Origin: Bacteriovoracaceae bacterium
GTDB lineage: Bacteria; Bdellovibrionota; Bacteriovoracia; Bacteriovoracales; Bacteriovoracaceae
Assembly (NCBI GenBank): GCA_021737405.1
Contig: JAIPEG010000001.1
Coordinates: 248,001 to 312,000, forward strand
Reading direction: 5' to 3'
Length of the DNA: 64,000 bases
The position numbers were made by a program, and so were the translations under genes. The number at the start of each line of letters is the position of its first letter. Within the stretch, counting starts at the first letter, position 1. This document shows, in pieces, positions 28,993 to 52,655 of this stretch. The notes beneath the pieces were generated by a model, which saw nothing but the letters and a program-made list of their open reading frames with translations, was not told where the DNA came from and did not search any database.

Positions 28993-29922
28993 TTGAGAAA
29001 TATCATTATCATTAAAACCGGATTAAGTGAATCACTTGCTCTAGATCATCAAAAGAGCATCATTAGCTTGGGGGATATCTTAAGCTCGACTCCGCTTATT
29101 GATTTTTTCAAAGAGGATAATATTTTTTGGATTACCTCACCACAGGGATTACCTCTTCTTGATGGGATACCGGAGTTAGAAAAGGTTCTCACCGAAAAAG
29201 AAGCTGAATTATATAGCTTTCCTAAAATAGACCTTATTTTAAATTTAGAAAGGTACGCTCCCTCACTAACAATCTCCAAAGAAACAAAAGTTTTTGGTTT
29301 TAGTTTTTTAGACCCAAATATTCTCCACACCTCTTCAGGAAAAGAAAACTTTAAATATGTAAAAGAGCGTCTTGAAACGCAGGGAAAGAAATCACTACAG
29401 GATTTTATTTTCTATATATTAGGGCAAGAGTTCACTGGCGAAACTTATAAGCTCTCCCCTAACTTGTCTGAGCAGTTGCCAGAGGTTTCTTACGACATTG
29501 GTTTTAATTGGAAAGTAGGTGAAAAATGGCCCACAAAAGAAGTCTCTCTTGAAAAATGGAATGAACTGGAAAAGTCATTAATCGAAAACAATTATTCAGT
29601 TTCCTGGCAAGAGGGATTCAATGATTTAAAAGACTATGTCAGATGGATTGCAAAGAACGACTTATTGATAACGAATGATAGTCTTGGACTTCATATTTGT
29701 TTGGCCCTAGGGAAGAGAAATATCTGCTTTTTTGGGCCAACAGACTCTCAAGCCATTTGGACTTATGGCCTCACAGAAATTGTGACCTTTGATGTACCCA
29801 ATAATTATGACTGTCTTCCCTGTTACTCAAATACTTGTCAAATGGAAAAAAAATGTACTGAATTTCTTGATACTTCAAAAGTAATGGATCTCATCAGAAA
29901 AAATGTCACTAAAGCTCTATAA
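28993..29922 (+). CDS. GT9-like (heptosyltransferase-type) glycosyltransferase
   Basis: A 309-residue GT-B fold protein. LITNDSLGLHICLALGKRN and CFFGPTDSQAIW form the typical GT9 donor-binding region (D/S-x-G-x-x-H), and the tail NYDCLPCYSNTCQMEKKC has the Cys-rich finger seen in many heptosyltransferases. The N-terminal half is diverged, and the classic GDxxxxTPL opening reads SLGDILSSTPLIDFF. Family 9 enzymes add heptose or related sugars to LPS core. It begins with TTG, four bases after the CLC gene, and is followed after 42 bases by the first of nine radical SAM genes, so it marks the left edge of the accessory cluster. Confidence 0.8.
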   Translation: MRNIIIIKTGLSESLALDHQKSIISLGDILSSTPLIDFFKEDNIFWITSPQGLPLLDGIPELEKVLTEKEAELYSFPKIDLILNLERYAPSLTISKETKVFGFSFLDPNILHTSSGKENFKYVKERLETQGKKSLQDFIFYILGQEFTGETYKLSPNLSEQLPEVSYDIGFNWKVGEKWPTKEVSLEKWNELEKSLIENNYSVSWQEGFNDLKDYVRWIAKNDLLITNDSLGLHICLALGKRNICFFGPTDSQAIWTYGLTEIVTFDVPNNYDCLPCYSNTCQMEKKCTEFLDTSKVMDLIRKNVTKAL

Positions 29923-29964
29923 ATATGATGATTAAGCAAGGAGCGGCCATTTAGAGCAATCTTA

Positions 29965-30957
29965 GTGAATACGAAAATATTGGACATAACTTCCCCACAA
30001 GAATACGATGGATTCACACTTATGATAGGAAACTCGCGTCCAAGTAGTGAGCCAAAAATGCCAAGTCACAACAAAATAATCGTTCCTTCACATTTTAACT
30101 ATATTGGAATTTTCTTAACACTAGGCTGTAATCTCTCTTGTAGCTATTGCATAAATTATTTAAGTGGTCTCGACAAGTTGAGAAGACCATTAAATACAGA
30201 GCAGTGGATTGATGTCCTTAACAGACTTGAGGTTCCAAACGGACTTCCTCTAACGATCCAAGGTGGTGAGCCATCGATTCATCCAGGCTTCTTTAAAATA
30301 TTACAAGGCATTAGAGAAGATTTAAAGATCGATCTCTTAACTAACCTTCAATTTGATGTGGACGAATTTGCCAAGCATGTTTCACCACAGAGATTTATAA
30401 GAGAAGCCCCTTATGCTTCAATTCGGGTTAGTTATCACCCCGAGACAATGGACCTTCCCCCTTTGCTTGATAAGATTTATAAGCTTCATAAGCTCGGTTA
30501 TCCGATAGCCCTTTATAGCGTCGAAATTGATAAGTATAAGAGTGAGCTCAGTATGGCAAAAGAGATGACTGAGAGACTCGGTATCACCTTTAAGCTAAAA
30601 GAACTACTTGGAGAATTCGACGGTAACCTTCATGGAGACATGTTGTATGAAGGCGCTGTCGCTGCAAAAGAGCTTAAGTCTTGTGAGTGTAAAACTAGTG
30701 AATTACTGGTTTCACCAGAGGCCGAAGTTTATCGCTGCCATCATGATCTCTATAATCGTAAATTTAGAACTGGGGACATAACCGCGAGCAACTTTAAAAT
30801 TGTTGATGAATACAGAACTTGTCACTTTTTTGGAAACTGCAATCCATGTGACATTAAAATCAAAAATAATCGCTTTCAAAAGCATGGCCATACTTCAGTA
30901 ACAATTAAAAACATTCGCCCTAGGGACATTACCCAGAGAGAGGAGACTCTAGCGTGA
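29965..30957 (+). CDS. Radical SAM protein, cluster member 1
   Basis: A 330-residue radical SAM enzyme. IFLTLGCNLSCSYC gives the CxxxCxxC iron-sulfur site (Cys55, Cys59, Cys62), and LTIQGGEPSIHP is the GGE motif for SAM. A Cys-rich C-terminal part (KSCECKTSEL, YRCHHDLYNRKF, NCNPCD) suggests one or two further iron-sulfur clusters in a SPASM/twitch-like domain. The N-terminal ~45 residues are not part of the standard barrel. The start is GTG. Its stop overlaps the next radical SAM gene by four bases (GTGA), so the pair is coupled and may act in one step or in sequence. The substrate is unknown. Confidence 0.85.
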   Translation: MNTKILDITSPQEYDGFTLMIGNSRPSSEPKMPSHNKIIVPSHFNYIGIFLTLGCNLSCSYCINYLSGLDKLRRPLNTEQWIDVLNRLEVPNGLPLTIQGGEPSIHPGFFKILQGIREDLKIDLLTNLQFDVDEFAKHVSPQRFIREAPYASIRVSYHPETMDLPPLLDKIYKLHKLGYPIALYSVEIDKYKSELSMAKEMTERLGITFKLKELLGEFDGNLHGDMLYEGAVAAKELKSCECKTSELLVSPEAEVYRCHHDLYNRKFRTGDITASNFKIVDEYRTCHFFGNCNPCDIKIKNNRFQKHGHTSVTIKNIRPRDITQREETLA

Positions 30958-32024
30958 GTAAACAAGAGCAAAAACTACTTTTAGACGGCTCAAAAATGAT
31001 TCACCATCTCGACAGAGTCGTGGCCTGGCAAAAAAAAGAAGTTATTTATCCTATTTATCTAGCCTTTAGCCCTACAAGTCTTTGCAATCATGCCTGCACT
31101 TTTTGCGTCTATCACTATAAGAAATTTGAACCGATCTTTTTCCCCATGGAATCTTATCGAAGACTAATTGAAGAGTGGTCTAAGCTTGGTATTCGCTCGA
31201 TGTTTTTTGCTGGGGACGGTGAACCGCTTCTTCATAAAAATATCGTCGAGATGATCGAGCTTGCAAAAGAGAGAAATATTGATGTCGCTATGAACACCAA
31301 TGCAAGATTACTCACACTCGATAGGGCAAAGGTTTTTGCTGATAAGCTTACGTGGATACGTATTAGTTTAAATGCAGGAACTCGTGACACTTACGCTAAA
31401 GTTCACCAAACGAATCCAAAAGACTTTGATATTGTTTTAAAAAATATTGAAAACCTCGTAAACATAAAAAAATCTCAAAACAGTGACATCACAATTGGTA
31501 TTCAGTGTGTTCTTCTCAATGAGAATGCTCGCGAAATTGAAGAGCTTGCAAAGAAACTCCGTGATATTGGTGTCGACTACCTTGCCGTTAAGCCCTTTAT
31601 TAAGCATCCTCTCACCAGTTGGGAAATGAATCTCGATAACAAAGAGACCATCATTGAGGAGCTGATTCAGCTAAAAGAACTAAGTACCTCCTCATTCAAG
31701 TTTGCTCTTCGTGAAAACAACTTTAAAGACAGCTCTATTCGATCTTATGGTAAATGCTTGTCTACTGAGTTTATGATTGAAGTTGATGCTAGAGGTGATA
31801 TTTACAGTTGTGGTCCCTACATAGGAGATAGCAAGCACCGATTTGGAAATATCTTAAATCATCCTTTTGAAGTGGTATGGAATAGTGAGGAATGTCGTGA
31901 ACGAATTTCTTATATTAGACATAAAGTCGACGTCTCAAAGTGTATGCCATTTTGTCGTCCAGATGCTGTAAACGAATTTCTGTGGGATCTTGAAAATCCC
32001 CCTCAACATGTTAATTTTATCTAA
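30954..32024 (+). CDS. Radical SAM/SPASM protein, cluster member 2
   Basis: A 356-residue radical SAM enzyme. FSPTSLCNHACTFCVYHY gives Cys44, Cys48, Cys51; FFAGDGEPLLH takes the place of the GGE motif (GDGEP). The C-terminal region YSCGPYIGDSKHRFGNI, with VSKCMPFCRPD, is a SPASM-type auxiliary cluster domain. The GDGEP form and length recall radical SAM proteins in carbohydrate and lipid loci rather than peptide maturases. GTG start, overlapping the upstream radical SAM gene by four bases. It is the last gene of the operon running from the CLC gene; the next gene is convergent, seven bases away. Confidence 0.86.
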   Translation: MSKQEQKLLLDGSKMIHHLDRVVAWQKKEVIYPIYLAFSPTSLCNHACTFCVYHYKKFEPIFFPMESYRRLIEEWSKLGIRSMFFAGDGEPLLHKNIVEMIELAKERNIDVAMNTNARLLTLDRAKVFADKLTWIRISLNAGTRDTYAKVHQTNPKDFDIVLKNIENLVNIKKSQNSDITIGIQCVLLNENAREIEELAKKLRDIGVDYLAVKPFIKHPLTSWEMNLDNKETIIEELIQLKELSTSSFKFALRENNFKDSSIRSYGKCLSTEFMIEVDARGDIYSCGPYIGDSKHRFGNILNHPFEVVWNSEECRERISYIRHKVDVSKCMPFCRPDAVNEFLWDLENPPQHVNFI

Positions 32025-32031: not shown

Positions 32032-33018
32032 TTAACGAAAGACGCGCTCATTATCTTTAAATCCAGAACTTAGTAGAGACCCAATTAATGTGGGCTTTGT
32101 TGCCAAAAATGAAAGCATTGTTAACATACCTGAATTCTTAAAGGCCGATGGCATATGGGCCAACTTATAGGCGACACCAATCGAAGGCTCTGGGTTTTCA
32201 ACAAAATGCCAAAAGAAGGCCGGAAACCACATCACATCTCCTGCTTCTAAAGTGATTTCAAAACTTCGTGCATATTTTGAAAGAGGAAATGCGGGATCAG
32301 ACTTAAGATCAATATTCAATTTACTAAAGAAGTAAGCCCTTCTCTCTGGCCGAACTCCTAAGAATAACCTTTCATCAGGTTCCCAAAAGGTCCATGTCTT
32401 CTTTCCCCGCAGTTGAATGAAAACTGTGTTTGATAAAGCATTGTGGATCGGTGTGTGAGTCTTTTCTCCTCCTATAAAGAGGAATAACTTCTTTCCAAAC
32501 GACCCGGGCAAAGAGAAGCGATTTAAAAAGTTAAAATCGAGATCTTTCTTTAAATTTGAGTCATGATGAATAATTGGTGAAAACTTCAAATATACTTTAG
32601 AGCCCTCTCTTAAGCTCTTAATATATTTCTTCATTGTGGTTACACCAAAATCTTGAACCCCTTTTTCGTGAAGGCCCTCACTATTTAAAATCGATATTTC
32701 TTTATCTGCGAAATAATCTACGAAGAAATCAAAATCCCATTTCTTAGAACAAGGCCATTCATTACCCGCTTGTCGAAAGACTTGGACCTTGTCAGTTCGG
32801 CCCCAACTTTTAACCTCATCCCCAGGAAAAAATTCTTCAAATGTAGGGTCCTCTGAATCTAATAGATTGTTATCAAAACTTTGACGAATTTCTTCAATTA
32901 GTTGATCTTCTTTTTTTCCAAATAGTTTACGAAAAAGACCATGACCTAAAATATGCTCAAGTAAAAACAGCCTGTTATAGCGTTGCCATTGTACAGAACT
33001 AACCCTTTTTGGATTCAA
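32032..33018 (-). CDS. JmjC/cupin_8-like protein with altered iron site
   Basis: A 328-residue cupin-like protein. Near residues 189-208, TPIHNALSNTVFIQLRGKKT matches the cupin_8/JmjC strand in which iron ligands normally read HxD or HxE; here the motif is His192-Asn-Ala194, so the acidic ligand is missing. The distal region LEAGDVMWFPAFFWHFVEN retains a likely third ligand, His271. A missing acidic ligand could mean a non-catalytic protein, or an open coordination site as in Fe(II)/2OG halogenases; neither can be decided here. A second JmjC-like gene with an intact HxE starts divergently at 33141. No signal peptide. Confidence 0.75.
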   Translation of the reverse strand: MNPKRVSSVQWQRYNRLFLLEHILGHGLFRKLFGKKEDQLIEEIRQSFDNNLLDSEDPTFEEFFPGDEVKSWGRTDKVQVFRQAGNEWPCSKKWDFDFFVDYFADKEISILNSEGLHEKGVQDFGVTTMKKYIKSLREGSKVYLKFSPIIHHDSNLKKDLDFNFLNRFSLPGSFGKKLFLFIGGEKTHTPIHNALSNTVFIQLRGKKTWTFWEPDERLFLGVRPERRAYFFSKLNIDLKSDPAFPLSKYARSFEITLEAGDVMWFPAFFWHFVENPEPSIGVAYKLAHMPSAFKNSGMLTMLSFLATKPTLIGSLLSSGFKDNERVFR

Positions 33019-33140: not shown

Positions 33141-34046
33141 ATGAAATTAATACCTTATTCCATATGGCTAATGGCCCACATTTTTCAAAGTGAAACTTTG
33201 CTCAAATACTTTTATAAGAGACCCGCCAATAGCGAAAGCTTAGATAATGAAAATAATTTTACCCCTATTGAAGAATGTGACGGTCAGTCCCTCGACACCA
33301 ATCAATTTAAGAATCTGATTTATAAAAGAAGGCCCATTATCATCAGGGGTATCGCGACCGCAGGTCTTAAAGATGAAATTAACCACGAATATCTCCTAAA
33401 GTATTTTGGCGATCAGCTCGAAGTTACAAGAAACTCCGATGACTCTTCTTCAAATCCAATGCCCATAAAAGAAATACTCAATAATGAGAAGTTAAAGCAG
33501 ACCATCGCAAGTCCTGTCCTTATGTCTCATGCAAAACTTAATCAAGATGTAAATATTGAGGAGTGGATCCCTGAGAAAACGATTCTCAAGGCCCCTATAT
33601 TAAACAAAGTCCTCTTTGCTTCTAAAAAGGGCTTTATTGCGAACCTTCACATGGAACCGGGTAGAATAATGAATATCCAACTCTCCGGTAAGAAACAATG
33701 GTTTCTGGTTCCACCAGTAATGTCCCCCTTTCTTCAACCACAATTAACTGACACGACTATTCACTTTTCAAATAATATTAGAACCAAGGCCGACCTTCTA
33801 GAAAATCTACCTAAAGGTGCGACGGTGTACACTGCTGAATTAGAAAAGGGCGATGCTTTATTGATTCCTCCCTTTCACTGGCATGTAGTTGAAAATCATG
33901 ATGACTCCGTCTCAGTGGCCTATCAATGGATGACTTTCTTTAGGTCTTTTATAGAGAACCCTTTAATGAACCTATTTGTTCTAACTTGTCGAAAAAGTCC
34001 TATCATCTCTCTCATTAAGAAGGATCACTCAAAAAGTGAAAGTTAA
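33141..34046 (+). CDS. JmjC/cupin_8-like Fe(II)/2-oxoglutarate oxygenase
   Basis: A 301-residue protein. FIANLHMEPGRIMNIQLSGK gives the first iron ligands as His170-Met-Glu172, and ALLIPPFHWHVVEN gives the distal His248; both lie in the usual cupin_8 context, so an active dioxygenase is likely. The N-terminal half (ECDGQSLDTNQFKNLIYKRR) matches the Cupin_8 entry segment, in which the protein 'reserves' the substrate. These enzymes hydroxylate proteins or small molecules. The gene is followed by a polytopic membrane protein whose start overlaps its end by 11 bases. Confidence 0.82.
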   Translation: MKLIPYSIWLMAHIFQSETLLKYFYKRPANSESLDNENNFTPIEECDGQSLDTNQFKNLIYKRRPIIIRGIATAGLKDEINHEYLLKYFGDQLEVTRNSDDSSSNPMPIKEILNNEKLKQTIASPVLMSHAKLNQDVNIEEWIPEKTILKAPILNKVLFASKKGFIANLHMEPGRIMNIQLSGKKQWFLVPPVMSPFLQPQLTDTTIHFSNNIRTKADLLENLPKGATVYTAELEKGDALLIPPFHWHVVENHDDSVSVAYQWMTFFRSFIENPLMNLFVLTCRKSPIISLIKKDHSKSES

Positions 34047-35787
34047 AAAGATCATACTTTATCCATTCTTATACCTACTCATGGTTTTCCTTATTGCCTT
34101 AAATAGTAAATTCAATGCATTTGAAGGCAATCTCTATAACAAGAAGCTCTTGAGTATTGTCAAAGACAACGACTTTAATGTCGTAAATAATACCCAACCC
34201 CCGTGGAGTACATTAATTACGGCTACTGATAACGTTGGAGATATGCATGACTTTGGTGCTCCCATTTTATGGGCAGGCATCATTAAAACTTATAATCTCT
34301 TTTTTAATTTTGATGAAATAGTTTTAAATTTCGAAAATGTCTTTATTTCAAATTATGATTCTTTCTTTATCGTCTTTCATCTTTTTTTACTTTTCTTTAT
34401 TAGAAAATGGGAGATAGAAAAAGGCACCAGAGAGTGGCTCTTCTGGGCGATCATTTTGAGTTTATCAATTCACGATTATCTTATAGACAATATTTTTAAT
34501 GCCGATATTATGGCCCTTTTTTTTATGTCCTATATAACCCATTCAATTTTGAAAAAAGATCTTTCAAAAGCACATCCTACCCATGCTTACTCACTTGGGT
34601 TAACCTTTGGGTTGCTGCGAGCGATTAAAATAACATCCATTCTCTATCTTCCGGCTTTTTTGCTGTTCTTCTTACTATCGATTCCCAACAAAAAGGAATC
34701 ATTTCAATTCATAGCAAGGTTTCTCTTAGGCTTTGCCTTAATCTTATTAACTATCCTTATTAATAATTATACGATTTTAGGAGATTGGTCTTTTTTGCAA
34801 GGTTATAATTATTCATATGCACTTATCCACCCACTAAACCTTAATGGCTGGAAGGCAACCTACCTATACCCAAGAAGCCTCTTTCTCCATTCAGTCCCGA
34901 TTCTTGTGATGCTCGTGACATACATTCTTTTCTCGATAAAGAAGGCAAAATCATTAGAGGCCAAAAACATATTCTTTTTGGTGGCTGGCGCTGGAATTTT
35001 GCTAAAGCTTTCCCTAGGGATATTTGGAGCGGCTGATCACTTTCTTGGAGTCGGTGCCCGTCAATTCTTCCTAGATATTCCCGTTATTCTTTTCTTTCTA
35101 AGTTGGGCCTATGAGAAGCAAAAGCGACTAACCACTGGGTGTGTTGTCTTTGGGATTTTAAGTGCCATCTATTTTAACTGCGAGTGGCTTTTACTCAATA
35201 AAGACCCTGAAGCCTTCTCCCTTGTTCCGCTTCTTAATTTTAAAGAAAATTTAATTTTTGCTTTTTCATTGATTCCATATGTTTTTAAGAAGATTTTCTT
35301 TGTATTTAGGTTTTGTGTTCAAGATTTTAGATACATTAGCGTATTTATATTTTTTACTTCAATCGTATTAATTTCTTCTGTTGTTAGAAAAAATGAAAAA
35401 CTTAATAGTTTACTCCCATTTATCTGTGCCTCAGTCTTTATTTACATATCATTTCTGAATTTAAAAAATAATATTAACAATACTTACGACTACTTTTTAA
35501 AGAATGGCTATTCCAATAGAATTATTGGGGCAACTGGTAAGCTTTACCTCTATCATGAAATCAATTCAGGACTTGCCCTTGGCCGGGCCTATGAAGATCG
35601 ATATGGCACGACCAGCTCTCAAGTTTATAGCTCAAGTATCCATAAAGCCCATTTGAATGAAATCAGAAATGATATCCTTTTTATAGGAAGAGAAGTTAAT
35701 CCTAATGGAATACAATCGGGCTACCTTGATCCTCGGTTTCCTTTTAATGAGCCTCTCATTGAGAGGAGTGCACCTCAATCAAAATAA
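34036..35787 (+). CDS. Polytopic membrane protein, possible GT-C glycosyltransferase
   Basis: A 583-residue membrane protein with roughly eleven to thirteen spans and a large N-terminal periplasmic loop (ATDNVGDMHDFGAP, with acidic residues where GT-C enzymes place their catalytic Asp). I do not recognise a specific family; overall layout and the ~80-residue soluble C-terminus resemble GT-C transferases or O-antigen-type membrane enzymes. GTG start (34036) overlapping the upstream oxygenase gene by 11 bases, so the two are coupled. Its 3' end overlaps the convergent methyltransferase gene by 13 bases. In this cluster the probable substrate is a lipid-linked glycan, by inference. Confidence 0.65.
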   Translation: MKVKKIILYPFLYLLMVFLIALNSKFNAFEGNLYNKKLLSIVKDNDFNVVNNTQPPWSTLITATDNVGDMHDFGAPILWAGIIKTYNLFFNFDEIVLNFENVFISNYDSFFIVFHLFLLFFIRKWEIEKGTREWLFWAIILSLSIHDYLIDNIFNADIMALFFMSYITHSILKKDLSKAHPTHAYSLGLTFGLLRAIKITSILYLPAFLLFFLLSIPNKKESFQFIARFLLGFALILLTILINNYTILGDWSFLQGYNYSYALIHPLNLNGWKATYLYPRSLFLHSVPILVMLVTYILFSIKKAKSLEAKNIFFLVAGAGILLKLSLGIFGAADHFLGVGARQFFLDIPVILFFLSWAYEKQKRLTTGCVVFGILSAIYFNCEWLLLNKDPEAFSLVPLLNFKENLIFAFSLIPYVFKKIFFVFRFCVQDFRYISVFIFFTSIVLISSVVRKNEKLNSLLPFICASVFIYISFLNLKNNINNTYDYFLKNGYSNRIIGATGKLYLYHEINSGLALGRAYEDRYGTTSSQVYSSSIHKAHLNEIRNDILFIGREVNPNGIQSGYLDPRFPFNEPLIERSAPQSK

Positions 35788-36842: not shown

Positions 36843-37518
36843 TTTTCCACTCGTTCAATCCAATTCTTGTAAATTCAGACATTTTCCAAATTTGAAAGTA
36901 GTCCAAAAGGGATTTCTTATTCTCAGGACTAAAAAGTGATTTGAACCTTATATTAAGAGAGACTCTTGCAGCGTTTGTTGTGTTTAAAGAGTTGCCATGC
37001 TTTAAAAAGTGCTTAAAAAGAACAACCTCATTTTCCTTAGGCATCAGATAGGCCTTTTCTCCCTTTTTATAAGGGAAGAGATGCATCGTATTTTCAATAT
37101 GGCATTTTGTTAAAGGTATCCAACAGGTTACTTCAAAGGAAGAATTCCCCGTCAAAACATCTGAATGATTGGGAATGATTGAGGTTTCATCTTGAGGGAG
37201 ATGCATAACGAGATTGACCCGTTTTTGTCGCACACAATCAGGACCAATTAACTTTGTTATAAAAGGAGCGAGGGGCTCAAGAAGCCAATCGAGCTTCGCC
37301 TGATCACTATTTATAGTGCTGATAACTTTTAGCCTTTTGGTATTAATGTCCTGAGGACTTATATGATGGTGGATCTCTTCAAGTGATACCGATTCTTCAC
37401 AACCAGCCCCCTCTAAAATTAAGGAGCGCAAAACTGACAACCGCTCATCCCAATGATTTGGCGATACATAGGTGTAACCATCGGTGTTTAGCTCATTAAT
37501 CCAGTCGCATTGATTCAT
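36832..37518 (-). CDS. Sporadic-carbohydrate-cluster-type 2OG-Fe(II) oxygenase
   Basis: A 228-residue protein from the ATG at 37518 (MNQCDWINELNTDGYTYV). An in-frame ATG at 37581 lies inside the divergent aminotransferase and is not credible. IIPNHSDVL gives iron ligands His118 and Asp120, FLKHGN gives His174, and RVSLNIRF gives Arg185, which would bind 2-oxoglutarate; MHLFPYKKG and the CWIPLT strand agree with phytanoyl-CoA-dioxygenase-like enzymes. Family members occur beside LIC12192-type proteins in scattered carbohydrate clusters, as here. Probable role: hydroxylation of a sugar or its precursor. The promoter region gives it an almost leaderless transcript. Confidence 0.8.
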   Translation of the reverse strand: MNQCDWINELNTDGYTYVSPNHWDERLSVLRSLILEGAGCEESVSLEEIHHHISPQDINTKRLKVISTINSDQAKLDWLLEPLAPFITKLIGPDCVRQKRVNLVMHLPQDETSIIPNHSDVLTGNSSFEVTCWIPLTKCHIENTMHLFPYKKGEKAYLMPKENEVVLFKHFLKHGNSLNTTNAARVSLNIRFKSLFSPENKKSLLDYFQIWKMSEFTRIGLNEWKNED

Positions 37519-37524
37519 ATTTGC

Positions 37525-37534
37525 TATTATAATA
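37525..37534. promoter_or_regulatory. Palindromic -10 element between divergent genes
   Basis: TATTATAATA is a self-complementary ten-mer that contains a perfect TATAAT on each strand (37528-37533 plus, 37526-37531 minus). On the minus strand it lies only seven bases before the oxygenase ATG, so transcription would start at or one base from that codon (leaderless). On the plus strand the aminotransferase ATG is at 37573. No good -35 box was seen for either direction, so the call is tentative. Confidence 0.45.
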
Positions 37535-37572
37535 GGGAGTCCAACATTCTGGGAAATTTGGAAGGAAGATCT

Positions 37573-46179: not shown

Positions 46180-47289
46180 TCACTTTTTTAGAGAGTTTTT
46201 GGCCATAAAGCCCACTGTTTTTAGCGCAAGAGTGGGGTATCTTACGGCGTTAAAGACATGGCTAGTATTAATGGCACAATCCCAGATACAGTTACACTCA
46301 TTATTTTCTATTGATTTTCGAGCACTCTGAGCTTTTTCCCCATCAATCACTTTTTGAATACTGTAGTCATTATCTCTGACGTTACCTAGCTTATTGTCAA
46401 GCAGATGCTCACAGGCAAACACATCACCCTGATCATCTAAAAGGGCAAACTTCTTAGCTCCAAAACACTTAAATGCACGACCTAAGCTAGGATTGCGAAC
46501 AGCCTTTTCAATAATTTTCTTTGTCTCTTCCTCCATCACCTTTTGCAAGGGTGAAAAGGGCTGATTATTAAATGGCTTATAACCCTCTATTCGTTTTTTA
46601 ATTTGATAATACCTTTCAACATCGACCTCTTTAAGGGTGGGGTCATATGTTTCTCCACGAACAATTCCAAGAGAGATGGAGTCGAATAATTTTAACTCCA
46701 TCATTTCTTCTATAAACCCAGGCATTTCATCTTGGGTCACCCTGTTGTACACAGAGTTAAGTGACATAGATAAATTGCCATACTTCTCTCTTAATCCGGC
46801 AATTAGACGAGCAGTCCGCATAGCATTTTGATGACCATCTTTTAGCTTTCTTACTTTATTATGAATTTTTTCAGGTCCATCAATAGATATCGCCATTCTA
46901 AAAAAGGAATTCGGGTATTTTTCAAGGGAGCTAACAAGAACTTCCTCAATCCTCTCAGTATAATAGGCATTTGTAGGTATAGAGAAATACTTCGTCTTAC
47001 AATTTATCGCAAATAAATCGATAATTTTATCAAGATCTTCCCTAATAAAGGGCTCACCGCCATAAAGATCAACCAAGAGCATATCGGGTAATTGAAGTGT
47101 TATTTTTTCTATTTCCTCTAAGCTCAGCTCTTTTCTTTTTATTGCCTCACCCACTTTATAAAGCTTTCCCGCATCAGCCACATTTTCCCAGTTCCAGCAA
47201 AAATCACAAAAGGCATTACACCGAGAGGTGACCGTGAAGTACAAGTAATTTAAATCTGGTGACAAGGCCCGCTTTAGTTCAGTTATCAT
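46180..47289 (-). CDS. Radical SAM/SPASM protein, cluster member 5
   Basis: A 369-residue radical SAM enzyme. YFTVTSRCNAFCDFCWNWENV gives Cys24, Cys28, Cys31; VDLYGGEPFIRED has the GGE motif. The C-terminal KCFGAKKFALLDDQGDVFAC, with EHLLDNKLGNVRD and ECNCIWDCAIN, is a SPASM-type domain. The N-terminus is short, so the barrel begins almost at the first residue. It overlaps the upstream SGNH gene by 11 bases. About 86 non-coding bases separate it from paralogue C, the longest gap inside the operon, and no ORF is visible there. Confidence 0.86.
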   Translation of the reverse strand: MITELKRALSPDLNYLYFTVTSRCNAFCDFCWNWENVADAGKLYKVGEAIKRKELSLEEIEKITLQLPDMLLVDLYGGEPFIREDLDKIIDLFAINCKTKYFSIPTNAYYTERIEEVLVSSLEKYPNSFFRMAISIDGPEKIHNKVRKLKDGHQNAMRTARLIAGLREKYGNLSMSLNSVYNRVTQDEMPGFIEEMMELKLFDSISLGIVRGETYDPTLKEVDVERYYQIKKRIEGYKPFNNQPFSPLQKVMEEETKKIIEKAVRNPSLGRAFKCFGAKKFALLDDQGDVFACEHLLDNKLGNVRDNDYSIQKVIDGEKAQSARKSIENNECNCIWDCAINTSHVFNAVRYPTLALKTVGFMAKNSLKK

Positions 47290-48358
47290 ATCTTTTTAAT
47301 TCTAACCTTTTTTTGATTTCTATATTTAATTCTTTAGCTATTTTCTTATTTCCGACTTCTGATAGATGGACAAAATCCACGAATCCAATCTCTCCACCAT
47401 CTCTAAGGAGAGAATCCAAATCAAAGCTGTATTCAGGGAGATTTTGTCTCACTTTCGTATAAAAGGGCCGTATATTACTTAAAAAACTAAGCTCTCTATT
47501 ATCTGTAAAGTTCTTTTCCCTTTGTTTTTCTTCCCAAGCAATTGGTTGAAGTACATGTAGAAATCTTACCCCCTTCAGATCACAAATTGCTTTCATCGTT
47601 TTTATATTGAATAAATATCTATCTTCGTAATCTGTAAAAACTGGGCCATAAGATATCTCGATCTTCATAGAAGTGAACATTTTAGATATTCGAGATCTTA
47701 AGTTTGGTAAAAAGGTACTACTTACAAACCTAGAAGGTGATCCAGAAAGCTTTTTATAAAGTAATTCCTGATATGGATGTACCCAAGGGTGATTCTTAGT
47801 GATATCCTCATTTGCCAAAGTATCATTTATCCCATTGAAAGCTATGACCATAGCTATATCTCTAAAAGAGCTTATATCCCTTTGTAGTTTAATCATTTCT
47901 TGATTCGAGCTATAGCCACTAACGGCACCATTTATAATTGTATGAGGAATATCTTTCTCTTTAAGATCTTCGTGGAGAAAGTAGGGCCAATTTCCATGAA
48001 ATATATTTGAATCTGTTGCCGAGCCACCATAAATTAAAATTTTCACGGCCCTAACACCTACATCTCTGGCTGGATGATGAAAATAAATATAACCATCTTT
48101 ACTTTCCCAGTTTTTTTCAAGCGTGGGATGATGCTTCCGTTCAAAACTCGTCATCTTGGCCTTTCGATTGAAAGTATAGCCAAGAAGAGGGTCAAGCTTT
48201 CCATATAGATCAGAAGGTAGCTCGTTTTCCAATCCTTTAAAATAAAAAAGTGGGTAAGTCTCCTGATTAAGAGAAAAAGAGGCAACCTCACAAAGACAAA
48301 TCACAATGACTGGAGCGAGAAATACAAACAACAATTTAAAACAACCTTTAATTTTCAA
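47279..48358 (-). CDS. SGNH/GDSL-like hydrolase with membrane-anchor N-terminus
   Basis: A 359-residue protein with one N-terminal hydrophobic segment (LFVFLAPVIVICLCEVA), so it is probably tethered to the inner membrane facing the periplasm. Hydrolase landmarks: ILIYGGSATDSNIF with likely nucleophile Ser113 (block I), NGAVSGYSS (block II), AFNGINDT (block III) and VDFVHLSEVG (block V, Asp and His). Glycan O-acetyl esterases and acyltransferase partners belong to this superfamily. In this cluster, removal or transfer of an acyl group on a glycan is a reasonable guess. It overlaps the following radical SAM gene by 11 bases. Confidence 0.8.
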   Translation of the reverse strand: MKIKGCFKLLFVFLAPVIVICLCEVASFSLNQETYPLFYFKGLENELPSDLYGKLDPLLGYTFNRKAKMTSFERKHHPTLEKNWESKDGYIYFHHPARDVGVRAVKILIYGGSATDSNIFHGNWPYFLHEDLKEKDIPHTIINGAVSGYSSNQEMIKLQRDISSFRDIAMVIAFNGINDTLANEDITKNHPWVHPYQELLYKKLSGSPSRFVSSTFLPNLRSRISKMFTSMKIEISYGPVFTDYEDRYLFNIKTMKAICDLKGVRFLHVLQPIAWEEKQREKNFTDNRELSFLSNIRPFYTKVRQNLPEYSFDLDSLLRDGGEIGFVDFVHLSEVGNKKIAKELNIEIKKRLELKRYDN

Positions 48359-48359: not shown

Positions 48360-49325
48360 CTAAGCCTTTATATATCTATTGCCATGAGGGATGCTCTTAA
48401 GCCTTTCTTCATTATTAACAAAGTAATGAGTATAAGTTTTTGCTATTACAAAGCCTTCCTCTTTTTTAATCTCAGGACTTTCATTGCTCCACAGATTGCA
48501 ATTAGCACAAATCCCAACTTCAGAAAAACGCCCTTCTTCATGTAACTTGCGTATTTCACCGACTTTTCCGTTATTCCAAAGATTCAAAACTCCATCATCA
48601 AAGGCATTACCAATTTCCACTTCGGAATGGGTATCAACACAACACAGAGAAACGGATCCATCATAATTCACCATTATTGAATCATATAATGACCAACAGG
48701 GCGTCCGAATCGGGGAGACTTCCCCTTCTACCTGGCGCTGAGGGGAGAATTCCTTATTAACCCTAATAACATCTACTAAACTCTTCCACTTTTGAACGAA
48801 TAACTCTTCCTCGCTCCGATTATTGTCCTCTACAACAAATGAAACGCCAATGCGGGGTAGGAGTTTATCGCCCCTCTCTTTTAAGAGATTTAGAACGTTT
48901 TTCTCCACGAGATGAAGAACGTCCTTTCCCCTTACCTTCTCAAAAGTTTCGGGCTCGATTGCATCTATGCTTACAAAAATTGAATCAATCTCTAGTTCTA
49001 CAAGCTGTTTCGCCATCTTCTCATTTAATAAAATACCGTTGGTGTCCATCGTCACCGTCAGGTTAAAATCTTTTAAAATTTTCAGGTACTTTAAGATATT
49101 TGGTGTTAATAACGGCTCATCCCATGTTTGGGGAGTTACGCGTGGAGAATAAGGAGCGAGCTCTTCACAAAGAGCAATAAACTTTTCAAAGTTCATAACC
49201 CCTGTTTTTCGATCACTCAACGTTGGTGCGTTTTCCCCATGGGTATAACATTTAGGACAACTCAGATTGCAATCACCCTCCTGTAGCCCCAGCAAAACTT
49301 TTTTAGGAAAAAAATTTTCTTTCAT
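48360..49325 (-). CDS. Radical SAM/SPASM protein, cluster member 6
   Basis: A 321-residue radical SAM enzyme. LQEGDCNLSCPKCYTHG gives Cys19, Cys23, Cys26. The GGE motif is replaced by TPQTWDEPLLTPN (DEP). VTMDTNGILLNEKM and the FVSIDAIEPETFEKVRG block are standard barrel parts. RTPCWSLYDSIMVNYDGSVS, with CCVDTHSEVEIGN and GICANCNLW, makes the SPASM-type auxiliary-cluster region. It overlaps the upstream aminotransferase gene by four bases, and its stop is one base from the SGNH gene. Confidence 0.86.
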   Translation of the reverse strand: MKENFFPKKVLLGLQEGDCNLSCPKCYTHGENAPTLSDRKTGVMNFEKFIALCEELAPYSPRVTPQTWDEPLLTPNILKYLKILKDFNLTVTMDTNGILLNEKMAKQLVELEIDSIFVSIDAIEPETFEKVRGKDVLHLVEKNVLNLLKERGDKLLPRIGVSFVVEDNNRSEEELFVQKWKSLVDVIRVNKEFSPQRQVEGEVSPIRTPCWSLYDSIMVNYDGSVSLCCVDTHSEVEIGNAFDDGVLNLWNNGKVGEIRKLHEEGRFSEVGICANCNLWSNESPEIKKEEGFVIAKTYTHYFVNNEERLKSIPHGNRYIKA

Positions 49326-50611
49326 GACTTCCCTGAAAAGTAATCATTCACAAACTTTGCCATCTCATCGATATCTTTAGGCATGAGATACCAATGTGTT
49401 GGCATATAAATAATATTATCTCTCATATTTTGCGTACTTCCAACTTTGGCGCCATTAAGCTGAGGGAGATTCGTTTGACTGCAATCAATGCCCCACTTTC
49501 TTGCCCTTTCCTTAAAATCATTTGGATTCTCTATCCAAATGGGAGTTTTCCAAAAGGTAGCTCCATCAAAATCAATGCCACGAGGAATACTCTCTCTAGC
49601 CTTTATATTTAAAGCATTATAGAATCTTTTGGCATTTCTTATACGTCTCTCCTCTATTTCTATTAAATGAGGCATTCTCTTTAAGCCGATCTTGGCCTGT
49701 AAATCTGTAAAGCGATAAAGAAGAAAAGAGGGAAACCCCACGTTTTCTTTTACCTGATTTGATTGAAAAAATCCTTTTAAAAATCTAAACCCTAGAAACT
49801 TTATCCCTTGTCCAGAAGTGATGGCCTCAACGTTATCCCCTCTTTTAACAACAAGAAGCTTCACCAAAAATCTCGTAAAAAAATAAAAAACATATGGATT
49901 CAGTAACGTTAAAGAAACCCAGTCTTCAAAAGCTGATATCATTAAAAACTTTCGTTCGATTTTCTTTAATTCATTGGTAGATTTTTCTAATATGTGTCTC
50001 TGAAGATCTTTATTTTCCGTAATATAATAAGCACCTCGATGAGTATGAATGACTTTTAGATCACACATTGAACTGAAGGCAAAGTCACTATACTCAAAAA
50101 GCCTTTTTCCTTTCCACTTTGTTAAATAACATTGAGTCAGATCGAGAATCAAAGATAAGTTATGAGACTTACAAAAGTTAAAAACCTTTTCCATGTCAAC
50201 GGGAATACCCGCAAGAGGAGTCAGAAAGAAAACTAAAGCGTTTTTTGGCGGAGTGAAATCATCTAAATCAGGCTCAAAGGAATTTTCCTTAAAATCTATG
50301 AATGTTAGATTTGCCCCAGTATTTGAAATGATCGTTTTCATATCAGGCAAATTAATAGGGGTCATCAGAACTGTAGACCCTGTTCCTACATTGAGATAAT
50401 CCAATGTTAACTTTAAGCAATACCTTGCATTTGGAAGACAATGAACTGGCCTACCAAGCGTTTCGCCTAAGACCTCTTCAAACTTAGCCACTGATTTGGA
50501 TGAACCTAAATCAATGCTCAATAAAGTCTTAAGTATTGTTAGAAAAGGCGTCCACCAAGACATGTAGTAAACGGCTCGTGGGATTTGGCGAATTCTGATA
50601 AATACTCCCAT
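49322..50611 (-). CDS. DegT/DnrJ/EryC1/StrS-like PLP enzyme, divergent
   Basis: A 429-residue protein of the aminotransferase fold. CLPNARYCLKLTLDYLNVG fits the phosphate-binding region, LSLILDLTQCYLTKW holds the PLP-ring Asp and Gln, and FAFSSMCDLKVIHTHRGAYY places Lys186 at the Schiff-base position. The sequence around the lysine is further from consensus than in the 37573 gene, so a non-standard reaction is possible. The first ~35 residues (YYMSWWTPFLTILKTLLS) are hydrophobic and not part of the usual fold, perhaps a membrane contact. First gene of the eight-gene operon running down to 40450. Confidence 0.8.
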   Translation of the reverse strand: MGVFIRIRQIPRAVYYMSWWTPFLTILKTLLSIDLGSSKSVAKFEEVLGETLGRPVHCLPNARYCLKLTLDYLNVGTGSTVLMTPINLPDMKTIISNTGANLTFIDFKENSFEPDLDDFTPPKNALVFFLTPLAGIPVDMEKVFNFCKSHNLSLILDLTQCYLTKWKGKRLFEYSDFAFSSMCDLKVIHTHRGAYYITENKDLQRHILEKSTNELKKIERKFLMISAFEDWVSLTLLNPYVFYFFTRFLVKLLVVKRGDNVEAITSGQGIKFLGFRFLKGFFQSNQVKENVGFPSFLLYRFTDLQAKIGLKRMPHLIEIEERRIRNAKRFYNALNIKARESIPRGIDFDGATFWKTPIWIENPNDFKERARKWGIDCSQTNLPQLNGAKVGSTQNMRDNIIYMPTHWYLMPKDIDEMAKFVNDYFSGKS

Positions 50612-50630
50612 TCAATAAGGCCAAACTCAG

Positions 50631-50688: not shown

Positions 50689-51627
50689 ATGGAGAAAATC
50701 AAAACATACTACATAGAGACGATGAGGAAACTTATCGCTATTAGAGAGACCGAGCTTTTTATTTCAAAGAAATATGAAGAAGGGTTCTTTAGATGTCCTG
50801 TTCATCTCGCAATCGGTCACGAAGCTGTCCCTTCCGCCATTTTTAGTTTGTACGAAGAAAATCGCTTCGCCTTTAGCTACCACAGAAGTCATCATCATTT
50901 CTTAGCATGTGGCGCAAGCCCAGAAGAACTTTTGTACGAACTGGCAGGTCTTAGCAAGGGATGTTGTCATGGCCATGGTGGCAGTCATCATCTTCGAAAT
51001 GAGAAAGTTGGCTTTCTAGGATCTACTCCCATTATTTCAGGAACTATACCTGTTGCCGTTGGTTACTCTCACGGCCTTAAACTTAAAAATATCAGAGGAC
51101 GTGTTTTTGTCTTTTCAGGAGATACTATTGCGGAGGAAGGCCTTTTTCATGAAAGTCTAAACGCCGCGAGTTTATATCAACTTCCTATAACCTTTGTTAT
51201 TGAAGATAATGGATTAAGTTGCTTTACTCCATCAAGAGACCGCCAAGGTCATAGTGGTTATGAATTCATTGCCCGCTCATTTAACATTCCTTACTTTTCA
51301 GTTGATGGCTCCTCTATTGAGAACTGTCTCTCTAACCTGATTGAACATAAGGACTTAACTGACAAAAACCTTGGACCGACAATGATCCATGCTACGGTAT
51401 TTAGACCTTATGAGCATTGTGGATATCAAATCGAAGACACTGTGGACTGGAGAAATATCTCTGAGAACTGGCCTAAGCTTGACCCACTTCATAATGCCGA
51501 TGCTGAGTTTTCCAATACCAAATATTGTGACGATAAGACTCGGCTAGAGTTTTCAAAAATGGCTCAAGAAACCATCAATAGATGCAATGAGGCTTTAAAA
51601 GTGATTAAAAAGGAATTAAGAAGTTGA
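50689..51627 (+). CDS. Thiamine-diphosphate-dependent dehydrogenase-type E1 alpha subunit
   Basis: A 312-residue E1-alpha-like protein of the pyruvate/2-oxoacid/acetoin dehydrogenase family. RCPVHLAIGHEAVPSAIF, SYHRSHHHFLACGASPEEL and GCCHGHGGSHH are family landmarks, and SGDTIAEEGLFHESLNAAS followed by FVIEDNGLS forms the ThDP-Mg motif: Asp145 and Asn174 retained, the usual GDG reading GDT. It is paired with the E1 beta gene through a four-base overlap, but no E2 (lipoyl transferase) or E3 gene is present. That favours a stand-alone carboligase or decarboxylase acting on a sugar or acyl precursor over a central-metabolism complex. Confidence 0.87.
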   Translation: MEKIKTYYIETMRKLIAIRETELFISKKYEEGFFRCPVHLAIGHEAVPSAIFSLYEENRFAFSYHRSHHHFLACGASPEELLYELAGLSKGCCHGHGGSHHLRNEKVGFLGSTPIISGTIPVAVGYSHGLKLKNIRGRVFVFSGDTIAEEGLFHESLNAASLYQLPITFVIEDNGLSCFTPSRDRQGHSGYEFIARSFNIPYFSVDGSSIENCLSNLIEHKDLTDKNLGPTMIHATVFRPYEHCGYQIEDTVDWRNISENWPKLDPLHNADAEFSNTKYCDDKTRLEFSKMAQETINRCNEALKVIKKELRS

Positions 51628-52655
51628 GCCCTTTATCCTATAATAATTCTATTAACACCGCCTTTAAATCCATCATGAAGGAAGACAGTACTGTTATTGT
51701 CTGGGGGCCAGGTGCAAATGATCCCAAACGAGTTTTTGGAACCACAGCAGATCTTCTAGAGCTTTATGGCCCAGGTAGAGTCTACGATGGAGCTATTTCT
51801 GAAGCTTGCTACACTGGCCATTGCCTAGGTCTAGCGCTTAATGGGTTTAAGCCTATTGTTCACTTTCAAAGAATTGACTTTGCTTTTCTGGCCTGGGATC
51901 AAATCATTAATAACATTTGTAAATGGTCTTCCATGTTTGGAGAGGATATAAATTATTCGATCACTCTTAGAGCAGTAGTCGGGAGAGGCTGGGGACAAGG
52001 TCAGCAGCATTCACAAAACCCCATTTCTATGCTTACAAGTTTTCCTGGCATGAAAATTTATACTCCAACTACTCCTCAGCAAGCTTATTCCTGCTATAAG
52101 TCGACTTATAACGAAAAACAACCCTCCTTTGTTTTAGAGCATCGTTGGCTTCAAGATTATGTAGGCCACCTTGATACGACTAGGCCACATTCTGACCAAA
52201 CTGTTTATAAAAATGGCAAGGATATTACATTGGTTAGTTATTCCTACGGAATTATTGAATGTCTTCGTGCCTCTAAGGCCTTATCTAAGATTGGAGTTAG
52301 TTGCTCCGTAATAGGTGTTAATACATTTGATGAATTTACGAGAGAAAAACTTCAACGTACTTTTGGCTCTCCAGAGAATTCAATCGTGTTTGACCTTCAC
52401 TGGAAGTCTTCTTCTCCTCTCATTAATTTATTGCAAATAAGGGAAACTAAGAAACACAGACTCATCGCCCTTCCCAATTCCTACACGCCCACGGCAAGCA
52501 CTCTCGTAAAAGACTATTACCCTACCTGGGAAGATATATATATGAATGCGTGTGATATTCTTGGAGTTGTTCCTGAGAAGAGTTTTAGAAAATATTTTGC
52601 TAAAAATATTGATCAACCCTTATATGATGATCTACTTATTCAAGAACAATTTTGA
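51624..52655 (+). CDS. Thiamine-diphosphate-dependent dehydrogenase-type E1 beta subunit
   Basis: A 343-residue transketolase-like pyrimidine-binding subunit. YDGAISEACYTGHCLGLAL places the activating Glu60 that contacts the thiamine ring; PIVHFQRIDFAFLAWDQIIN and GGxGxQHSQ-like GRGWGQGQQHSQNP are standard. The C-terminal transketolase domain (DITLVSYSYGIIECLRAS) is complete. TTG start overlapping the alpha gene by four bases (TTGA). Together they should form an alpha2-beta2 ThDP enzyme. E1-like pairs occur in some polysaccharide and 'sporadic carbohydrate' loci; the substrate here is unknown. Its stop is three bases before that of the convergent unknown gene. Confidence 0.87.
   Translation: MSPLSYNNSINTAFKSIMKEDSTVIVWGPGANDPKRVFGTTADLLELYGPGRVYDGAISEACYTGHCLGLALNGFKPIVHFQRIDFAFLAWDQIINNICKWSSMFGEDINYSITLRAVVGRGWGQGQQHSQNPISMLTSFPGMKIYTPTTPQQAYSCYKSTYNEKQPSFVLEHRWLQDYVGHLDTTRPHSDQTVYKNGKDITLVSYSYGIIECLRASKALSKIGVSCSVIGVNTFDEFTREKLQRTFGSPENSIVFDLHWKSSSPLINLLQIRETKKHRLIALPNSYTPTASTLVKDYYPTWEDIYMNACDILGVVPEKSFRKYFAKNIDQPLYDDLLIQEQF

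Follow-up and report, generated by a model that had tools for sequence, protein, structure and literature searches.

A Variable Chromosomal Island Dense in Radical SAM Enzymes and Probably Devoted to Surface-Glycan Biosynthesis in a Bdellovibrio-Like Bacterium

Gene Content and Layout of the Island

Positions 28993-52655 of the window (a stretch of 64,000 nucleotides from a Bacteriovoracaceae genome, analysed as a whole) hold a block of sugar genes from a Bdellovibrio-like bacterium that comprises 21 genes in approx. 24 kb and encodes nine radical SAM (rSAM) enzymes (Table 1). The block is flanked by a chloride channel gene (CLC) on one side and the DNA polymerase I gene (PolA) on the other, and it fills the interval between them except for one 190-amino-acid orphan. 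The open reading frames were found where a preliminary description of this DNA had placed them. That description also held that gaps or overlaps of a few bases run through most of the cluster; indeed, 14 of the 20 gene-gene distances lie within 15 bp either way, but the strand switches across the island in seven alternating runs, and it is therefore not one operon.

Table 1. Genes of the island, with window coordinates and the evidence for each assignment
Gene product	Position	Strand	Evidence
GT9 (heptosyltransferase-like) transferase, rS1 partner	28993..29922	+	PF01075 33.1 bits
rS1, rSAM with conserved C-terminal Cys set	29965..30957	+	PF04055 35.1 bits
rS2, rSAM/SPASM	30954..32024	+	PF04055 80.4, PF13186 29.6 bits
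cup1, Cupin_8/JmjC-like, HxA replacing HxD/E	32032..33018	-	PF13621 82 bits
cup2, Cupin_8/JmjC-like, HxE...H present	33141..34046	+	PF13621 57.8 bits
Large membrane protein, 583 aa, ~11 hydrophobic segments	34036..35787	+	hydropathy
SpoChoClust_1-like domain fused to class I methyltransferase	35775..36842	-	TIGR04323 31.9 bits (cut-off 55); PF08241 66.8 bits
SpoChoClust_2 2OG-Fe(II) oxygenase	36832..37581	-	TIGR04324 165.5 bits (cut-off 150)
DegT1, PLP aminotransferase	37573..38730	+	PF01041 171.7 bits
GT2 transferase	38723..39424	+	PF00535 73.9 bits
rS3, rSAM/SPASM	39421..40440	+	PF04055 51.4, PF13186 30.1 bits
B12a, B12-binding rSAM	40450..41964	-	PF04055 68.7, PF02310 57.4 bits
rS4, rSAM	41996..43030	-	PF04055 40.1 bits
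B12b, B12-binding rSAM	43032..44558	-	PF04055 69.3, PF02310 51.3 bits
B12c, B12-binding rSAM	44561..46093	-	PF04055 72.2, PF02310 49.9 bits
rS5, rSAM, best conserved of cluster	46180..47289	-	PF04055 48.9 bits
SGNH/GDSL-like protein, N-terminal hydrophobic segment (9-27)	47279..48358	-	PF00657 22.3 bits (cut-off 23.6)
rS6, rSAM/SPASM	48360..49325	-	PF13186 47, PF04055 46.7 bits
DegT2, divergent DegT-type PLP enzyme	49322..50611	-	PF01041 73 bits
E1 alpha-like ThDP subunit	50689..51627	+	PF00676 111.7 bits; best PDB matches are PDH E1 alpha chains
E1 beta-like ThDP subunit	51624..52655	+	PF02779 76.8, PF02780 30.5 bits

Radical SAM Enzymes

All nine rSAM proteins pass the Pfam cut-off for Radical_SAM (PF04055), and each carries the previously noted CxxxCxxC motif once (shuffled sequences give 0.03 of nine). 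The 3.36-Mb assembly contains 44 PF04055 matches, of which nine fall inside these 23.7 kb, with approx. 0.3 expected by length. Three of the proteins, B12a, B12b, and B12c, combine PF04055 and CxxxCxxC with a B12-binding domain (PF02310) in one chain, the architecture of B12-dependent rSAM enzymes; this domain is absent from the preliminary description. In a tree, the three paralogues appear as a tandem duplication. Among the 25 NCBIfam models listed per protein, none for the named B12-rSAM methylases and cyclases (BchE, Sden_1168, HpnJ, PhpK, and others) reached its cut-off, the best score being that of BchE (162 versus a cut-off of 481). Because no listed model reaches its cut-off, methyl transfer by the three paralogues, and with it the branching by radical methylation proposed earlier, is plausible by analogy only. 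Hydrophobic stretches lie near the C-terminus of B12b (residues 454-472) and B12c (420-438), and further ones are found in B12c (341-359) and B12a (72-90 and 371-389). The B12c open frame reaches approx. position 46102, beyond the listed reading frame; the extension has no ATG, GTG, or TTG start, and its N-terminus is paralogue-like, so that the start of B12c is probably a CTG at 46093 and not the TTG of the list, which lies downstream at 45988.

As for the other six, a SPASM domain (PF13186) passes the cut-off only in rS2, rS3, and rS6, and rS1, rS4, and rS5 have no Pfam SPASM match. In an alignment of 15 rows, 14 or more retain Cys55/59/62 and Cys242/258/286/292/295 of rS1. Within the phylum, rS1 is present in 16 of 368 genomes and rS5 in 12 (both at E ≤ 1e-25), and rS2 likewise in 12 of 368 (E ≤ 1e-60). 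Identity to rS5 is 77% in a sister species (G006), 50% in another genus (G102), 43% in G081, and 39% in a third genus (G071).

Sugar, Cofactor, and Membrane Enzymes

Pfam matches bear out the two DegT enzymes, the E1 alpha/beta pair, and the two glycosyltransferases reported previously. The start of DegT1 is, by judgement, placed at the ATG at 37573 rather than the TTG at 37510. Lys186 of DegT2 is invariant in all four aligned sequences and is probably the PLP lysine. No 2-oxoacid dehydrogenase E2 or E3 partner of the E1 pair was found among Pfam matches in the island. The PDB matches of GT2 include sll0501, dolichol monophosphate mannose synthase, and undecaprenyl-phosphate formamido-arabinose transferase, the top match being an uncharacterised glycosyltransferase. 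The SGNH-like label given earlier corresponds to a match slightly under its cut-off, and the protein has a 33% identical homologue in G102.

Both proteins described as JmjC-like do belong to Cupin_8/JmjC, but cup1 lacks the acidic iron ligand: H-x-A/G and a distal His occur in five of five aligned sequences. H-x-A/G likewise replaces H-x-D/E at the iron site of 2OG halogenases. cup2 has HME in both aligned sequences. The large membrane protein, again as described, has homologues in G006 and G102 and, at 49 bits, a weak and partial match in G071; neither Pfam, NCBIfam, nor PDB profiles match it (PDB search of the alignment, E ≤ 5), and its single-sequence AlphaFold model is poor (pLDDT 41.8). 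By resemblance, it may be a GT-C-type transferase.

Sporadic Carbohydrate Cluster Genes

The 2OG-Fe(II) oxygenase, correctly recognised before, has no Pfam match, yet it passes the curated cut-off of SpoChoClust_2 (TIGR04324). The adjacent methyltransferase is a true fusion whose N-terminus resembles SpoChoClust_1 (TIGR04323, the LIC12192 family); as this domain and a separate 135-amino-acid protein of G102 (49.4 bits) both stay under the cut-off of 55, it is called SpoChoClust_1-like only. The TIGR04324 cut-off is passed in 18 of 368 phylum genomes; of the 15 loci that do not belong to G000, G006, or G102, 12 also have a methyltransferase homologue near the TIGR04324 gene. Six of these 15 loci were re-annotated with transketolase queries that came from one of the six, and each has a split transketolase pair nearby, whereas the island and G102 carry the E1 alpha/beta pair in its place and are dominated by rSAM enzymes. 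The E1 pair is 13 kb from SpoChoClust_2 in the window and adjoins it in G102. No discussion of either family was found in the open-licence literature that was searched.

A PDB profile search with the SpoChoClust_1 alignment gave no match at E ≤ 5, and the single-sequence AlphaFold model of the SpoChoClust_1-like domain is poor (pLDDT 45.7). In a profile-profile comparison with resolvase, the score was 30.6 (P 2.5e-4, probability 42.8%); 60 column shuffles scored 18.8 at most, and the reversed profile scored 9.8. From 25 loci, a length filter left 16 resolvase rows, and five of these were dropped beforehand (rows in which R-V/T/I-S is missing close to the start, and L159/L160); when all 16 were kept, the comparison scored 27.0 (P 0.0015). 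Only one of 11 SpoChoClust_1 members matches the Pfam Resolvase model (E 0.041), and a single member is likewise matched by each of eight unrelated Pfam models, in some cases at a better E-value. A resolvase fold for this domain is thus a lead only.

The CLC-PolA Slot and Its Contents in Relatives

In sister species, the CLC-PolA slot is empty or otherwise filled. In G005, 50 bp separate CLC from PolA; G003 lacks a CLC match and has approx. 330 bp at this place; G001 and G002 carry an MBOAT gene and an open reading frame of approx. 355-372 amino acids; and G004 has a different rSAM-rich set. In G006, a collinear set retains 17 of the 21 genes in the same order at 34-77% identity, with SDR, NTP_transferase, and HAD genes beside it. 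Constant flanks with differing contents, as in O- and K-antigen loci, are seen across the seven genomes of the genus that were compared. Outside the genus, 12 of the families are reshuffled on one 20-kb contig of G102, which also has a weak DegT1 match, and in G071, DegT2, rS3, and rS5 stand beside GT2 and GT4 genes, with a weak B12-rSAM match and the weak, partial match to the membrane protein. Because slot contents vary, 17 of 21 genes are collinear in G006, and 12 families are reshuffled in G102, sequence comparison indicates that the island is a real, modular unit. Scattering of the genes with no shared occurrence in relatives, which the preliminary description had named as grounds for abandoning its view of the cluster, was looked for, and G006 and G102 argue against it.

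GT9 and rS1 are particularly closely associated. Among 61 genomes searched, GT9 occurs in 14 of 16 with rS1 and in none of 45 without it, always within approx. 3 kb of rS1 in all 14 (Fisher P 5e-12, uncorrected for the relatedness of the genomes). The two apparently form a stand-alone pair at least once, and in other genera GT9 and rS1, often with rS2, are found apart from the other island genes. G006 lacks GT9, rS1, rS2, and SGNH; thus, this module is not required by the rest.

Related Gene Sets and Known Systems

Plasmids of Azospirillum and Solidesulfovibrio carry homologues of rS2. A group of ten genes (SIS, two DegT, rSAM, hypothetical, E1 alpha, E1 beta, PfkB kinase, and two SDR) is shared, with some rearrangement, by G173 and an Azospirillum plasmid, their rSAM proteins being 79% identical. 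The stretch at 195-230 kb of the Azospirillum oryzae plasmid NZ_CP054615.1 resembles the island in its E1 alpha/beta, two DegT, rSAM, methyltransferase, and SGNH genes and also has SIS, PfkB kinase, and SDR genes; unlike the island, this stretch has three rSAM genes, none annotated as cobalamin-binding, and the matching proteins are only 27-32% identical to those of the island. In Solidesulfovibrio, the rS2 homologue is surrounded by pseB/pseC/pseF, a gene of the N-acetylneuraminate synthase family, SIS, and PfkB. The SIS, kinase, and nucleotidyltransferase genes of the relatives are absent from the island in the window. A search of plasmid records gave nothing for rS1 or the G102 SpoChoClust_2 protein and weak matches (24-28%, five records) for rS5.

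On a 36-kb plasmid of Brachyspira hyodysenteriae, glycosyltransferase, epimerase, and rfb genes are accompanied by several rSAM genes; the region varies between strains, and a role in LOS or glycosylation has been proposed for it (PMC4267127). It is likewise an rSAM-rich glycan region, and rS2 is 26% identical to a SPASM protein of the plasmid; however, it is plasmid-borne, and the passages that describe it name no B12-rSAM, ThDP pair, or SpoChoClust gene (PMC4267127). The earlier statement that known families alone give no product is correct, but two of the families already bear an NCBI carbohydrate-cluster name, and this rSAM-dense region had already been tabulated (PMC4267127), with no explanation found in those parts of the open-licence literature that were covered.

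For comparison, the ArnB-ArnC-ArnT system of lipid A decoration shares with the island a DegT aminotransferase, a GT2 (here with a weak ArnC-type PDB match), and a multi-span membrane protein. In contrast, DegT1 scores 80.9 versus 631 for the model of that aminotransferase, the island has far more tailoring enzymes, and neither Pfam, NCBIfam, nor PDB profiles support ArnT homology of its membrane protein.

Proposed Product and Alternatives

Because of the SpoChoClust_2 membership, the swapped slot contents, and the glycan-type neighbours in relatives and on the named plasmids, a surface glycan, as suggested previously for what is a coherent unit, appears to be the best explanation of the product class. 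The island is probably an accessory cassette for the biosynthesis of a surface glycan (LPS or another glycolipid), swapped at a fixed chromosomal slot and composed of three sub-modules. In putative order, an amino sugar, perhaps of heptose type, would be built, tailored by B12-dependent radical methylation, and joined to a surface acceptor. In module (a), the E1 pair, the SpoChoClust_1-like methyltransferase, and the SpoChoClust_2 oxygenase together with the DegT enzymes would yield a sugar that bears amino, methyl, and hydroxyl decorations. That its precursor is of heptose type is a guess based on related genomes: in some of them, SIS isomerase, sugar kinase, or nucleotidyltransferase genes accompany a similar set. 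The core of module (b) would be DegT2, rS3, rS5, the B12-rSAM enzymes, GT2, and the membrane protein: GT2 may attach the sugar to a lipid carrier, successive positions of the sugar may be C-methylated by the B12-rSAM paralogues, and the membrane protein, to judge from hydropathy and resemblance, may transfer it outside the inner membrane. In the separable module (c), which often includes rS2, the sugar transferred by GT9 would be heptose-like, and rS1 would modify it either beforehand or afterwards. As counter-evidence, Pfam and NCBIfam searches of the island matched neither Wzx nor Wzy, nor any family of ABC exporters or O-antigen ligases. Export and polymerisation genes (Wzx/Wzy or ABC), as O- and K-antigen loci carry them, are not among its Pfam matches, and the membrane protein at 34036 is unassigned. 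The absence of the relatives' SIS, kinase, and nucleotidyltransferase genes, the 13 kb between the E1 pair and SpoChoClust_2, and the sub-cut-off SpoChoClust_1 score also weigh against this reading.

A narrower proposal is tentative and on balance doubtful: GT9 and rS1 would be a two-gene system in which the rSAM enzyme remodels a heptose-like LPS sugar or its donor, and the glycan made by the island around it would be of amino-heptose type, carry several C-methyl groups, and perhaps be halogenated by cup1. The two-gene reading itself concerns radical chemistry on the LPS core or a nucleotide-sugar donor, by a pair carried alone or inside larger islands.

The same sugar chemistry could instead serve a diffusible small molecule (aminoglycoside-, nucleoside-, or phosphinate-like) that is exported rather than surface-attached. 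DegT and glycosyltransferase families are common in antibiotic clusters, and the best-scoring B12-rSAM models include P-methyltransferases, ApyD, ArsL, and AprD4; these models, however, score far below their cut-offs, Pfam finds no NRPS, PKS, or exporter family in the island, the neighbour genes in relatives are of sugar-nucleotide and pseudaminate type, and the cassette pattern of the slot better suits surface antigens, which makes this pathway unlikely. Slightly less likely still is lipid tailoring, in which membrane lipids would be the substrates that B12-rSAM and SPASM enzymes methylate, cyclise, or cross-link, with only a head group coming from the sugar genes. It would account for the hydrophobic stretches in B12a, B12b, and B12c and for HpnJ, HpnR, and the lipid-biosynthesis B12-rSAM model TIGR04072 among the sub-cut-off matches, but the scores are far below cut-off, and Pfam finds none of the gene families for hopanoids, ladderanes, or fatty acids in the island.

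That the slot merely gathers unrelated cargo with no common pathway is already disfavoured and quite improbable: module (c) is missing in G006 and separate in other genera, and the GC content of the island is a few points below that of the window's upstream half but not below that of the downstream sequence; yet chance does not suit the collinearity with G006 or the families kept together in G102. Least probable of all is a RiPP locus, with SPASM rSAM enzymes and cupin hydroxylases acting on a ribosomal peptide. Cupin_8/JmjC hydroxylases are known from RiPP loci, and many peptide maturases are among the sub-cut-off rSAM matches, yet no listed maturase model reaches its cut-off. A search of the gaps for a precursor gene gave four open reading frames of at least 15 codons lying mostly in gaps (18-43 codons), all unremarkable and none convincing.

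Implications

rSAM-dense glycan regions are already known, as on the Brachyspira plasmid (PMC4267127), and the sharpest new point is the pairing of GT9 with rS1, which is small enough for expression and assay and makes the question directly testable. If the surface-glycan reading is true, it would provide a first role for two NCBI-named carbohydrate-cluster families. Moreover, bacteria would then regularly use rSAM and B12 chemistry to diversify their surface sugars, exchanging cassettes at one fixed site much as in O-antigen loci.

Island layout and radical SAM content

The window comes from a draft genome (3.36 Mb, 84% complete) whose host, a Bdellovibrio relative, is presumably marine, judging from its family. 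Twenty-one genes lie between a CLC channel gene and a 190-aa orphan next to the DNA polymerase I gene (PolA); they form seven alternating strand runs, and 14 of the 20 gene-gene gaps measure at most 15 bp either way. Nine of the 21 encode radical SAM (rSAM) proteins, all of which exceed the Pfam cut-off and contain CxxxCxxC once (shuffles expect 0.03 of nine), and three of these, B12a-c, carry a B12-binding domain. The island holds 9 of the 44 Radical_SAM matches in the whole genome.

Another rSAM-dense stretch of the host genome (G000:C30:86606-98649, in L220) has five PF04055 matches in 12 kb. The 190-aa protein has an N-terminal hydrophobic segment, with no Pfam match and no homologue above the score limit in the scanned loci. 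In B12c, ATG, GTG and TTG are absent at the position homologous to the start of its paralogues, and a CTG with AGGA upstream agrees with the paralogues' N-termini.

Positions of island genes and neighbouring features in the window
Feature	Position
CLC channel	27252-28988
GT9 transferase	28993
rS1 (rSAM)	29965
rS2 (rSAM)	30954
cup1 (Cupin_8/JmjC-like)	32032-33018
cup2 (Cupin_8/JmjC-like)	33141
Methyltransferase fused to SC1	35775-36842
SC1-like domain	36387-36842
SC2 oxygenase	36832
DegT1 (PLP enzyme)	37573
rS3 (rSAM)	39421
B12a (B12-binding rSAM)	40450
rS4 (rSAM)	41996
B12b (B12-binding rSAM)	43032
B12c (B12-binding rSAM)	44561
B12c, homologous start region	45988-46102
B12c, CTG	46093
rS5 (rSAM)	46180
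rS6 (rSAM)	48360
DegT2 (PLP enzyme)	49322
E1a (ThDP)	50689
E1b (ThDP)	51624
190-aa orphan	52659-53231
190-aa orphan and PolA	52659-56016
SIS	57057

A cassette swapped between CLC and PolA

The slot was compared across seven genomes of the genus. Only 50 bp separate the CLC and PolA genes in G005; in G003 (88% complete), where a search for the CLC gene gave no match, about 330 bp separate a 99-aa ORF from PolA. G001 and G002 have one MBOAT O-acyltransferase gene and an ORF of about 355-372 aa, to which G001 adds two smaller open frames. The slot of G004, split across two contigs, is filled differently: no fewer than six rSAM genes follow PolA and at least one follows CLC, and the contents include an rS2 homologue (62% identical). 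In G006, 17 of the 21 window genes are found in the same order at 34-77% identity, without GT9, rS1, rS2 and SGNH and with a fourth B12-rSAM gene; matched flanking genes are 49-96% identical. On this evidence, the cluster delimited at 28993-52655 in the preliminary description coincides with a swapped cassette.

The rSAM-rich island of G004 (L134-L135, L133) also encodes a PhyH-like oxygenase, a methyltransferase and an FG-GAP repeat protein. Between CLC and Cpn60, G006 (L049:7138-15624) carries GDSL, sub-cut-off rSAM, class V aminotransferase and carbamoyltransferase genes that are absent from the window island.

Separable parts of the island

The same families recur, reshuffled, in other genera. 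Bases 1-19000 of a single 20-kb contig of G102 hold 12 window families in a different order (rS3, methyltransferase, SC2, E1b, E1a, rS5, GT9, rS1, a B12-rSAM, SGNH, DegT2 and the membrane protein), together with a weak DegT1 match; identity to the window is 50% for rS5, 51% for rS1 and 24% for the membrane protein. In G071, from a third genus, rS5, DegT2 and rS3 adjoin GT2 and GT4 genes, with weak matches to the membrane protein (partial, 49 bits) and to B12-rSAM (120 bits); SC and E1 genes are absent from this locus. rS5 is rare, being found in 12 of 368 phylum genomes at E<=1e-25 and at >=39% identity in five, including the window's own. These recurrence patterns split the island into three parts: a SpoChoClust module, a GT9-rS1 module, and a core comprising DegT2, rS3, rS5, B12-rSAM and the membrane protein.

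The GT9-rS1 pair provides the sharpest testable claim on the island. rS1 occurs in 16 of 368 genomes, in nine genera. When the window GT9 was searched (E<=1e-6, a threshold that more divergent GT9 proteins escape) in these 16 and in 45 hand-chosen genomes of the same family without rS1, it matched in 14 of the 61, all carrying rS1 (Fisher's exact P = 5e-12, related genomes not being independent). The two rS1 genomes without a match are G095, which has a fragmentary rS1, and G094, whose contig starts approx. 310 bp ahead of the gene. GT9 and rS1 lie within approx. 3.0 kb of each other in all 14 genomes and within approx. 105 bp in nine. The pair looks like a stand-alone unit in G085, amid diaminopimelate epimerase, FtsJ and protease genes, and in G062, whose layout is similar as judged from ORF size only. 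In the GT9 alignment, the columns conserved in 13 or all 14 rows include a T-x-D-S-L-G-x-H segment, and a C-terminal Cys set is kept in the aligned rS1 sequences. rS2 (>=55% identity) is found in eight genomes, seven of which also have rS1 within approx. 5 kb.

In the SpoChoClust module, SC2 passes the cut-off of TIGR04324 ('sporadic carbohydrate cluster 2OG-Fe(II) oxygenase'), as do proteins in 18 of 368 phylum genomes, and the methyltransferase N-terminus resembles TIGR04323 with a score below its cut-off. With G000, G006 and G102 excluded, 12 of 15 TIGR04324 loci have a methyltransferase homologue in the fetched stretch, the others being L100, L109 (a 9-kb contig) and L111. Six of these 15 loci (L098, L099, L101, L102, L104, L112) were re-annotated with transketolase queries from L098, and each carries an SDR together with a split transketolase pair. 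In G102, an E1 alpha/beta pair directly adjoins SC2 in the transketolase pair's place; in the window, which has no transketolase pair, the E1 pair is 13 kb from SC2. The SC1-methyltransferase fusion occurs in some genomes, and SC1 is a separate 135-aa gene in G102.

A single 507-aa frame (L104:8541-10061) joins an SC1-like domain to a DegT-type aminotransferase. In profile comparison, the SC1-like domain (in the window and at L050:5868-6272) weakly resembles the catalytic domains of serine recombinases (resolvases), and its residues vary where aligned resolvases carry the D-R of LDRLGR.

Predicted chemistry and product

In a tree of 28 B12-rSAM sequences, B12a-c cluster with three G006 copies (support 100/100), the fourth G006 copy clusters with that of G102 (100/99), and G051 has a triplet of its own (100/99). 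Such repeated tandem duplication suggests paralogues that act one after another in similar reactions, for which methylation at different positions is the simplest reading. None of the named models listed is reached by B12a-c.

In cup1, HNA stands where a facial triad has H-x-D/E; cup2 has HME. All five aligned sequences (window cup1, L049, L057, L059, L204) show H-x-A/G with the distal His retained. In 2OG halogenases, H-x-D/E is altered and the site is open to halide; by analogy, cup1 may have such a halide-open site, or else be a pseudo-enzyme. The homologous loci had been fetched for B12-rSAM or rS1, and their closeness to B12-rSAM genes is therefore biased.

Heptose nucleotide synthesis usually begins with SIS and a sugar kinase. 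Since the window island has neither gene, we infer a heptose as its sugar only by way of its relatives. SIS lies just outside the island and is found in all five sister slot contigs reaching it (G001, G003-G006), island or no island; the G002 contig stops before this position. Next to its set, G006 has two SDR genes, one NTP_transferase gene and one HAD phosphatase gene. Ten genes (SIS, two DegT, rSAM, a hypothetical, E1 alpha, E1 beta, PfkB kinase and two SDR) are clustered, partly rearranged, both in G173, from another family (L064), and on an Azospirillum oryzae plasmid (L222); the rSAM proteins are 79% identical across phyla, likely because of horizontal transfer. On a Solidesulfovibrio plasmid, an rS2 homologue (35%) adjoins SIS, with PfkB kinase and pseudaminate genes nearby, a link to nonulosonate sugars.

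Among the matches listed from the open-licence literature, a scope mostly outside subscription journals, no paper concerned SpoChoClust or a radical SAM-heptosyltransferase pair. The one precedent found for rSAM-dense glycan genes is a Brachyspira hyodysenteriae plasmid (PMC4267127). The island is real, modular and swapped, its radical content is unusual, and its product class is most likely a surface sugar.
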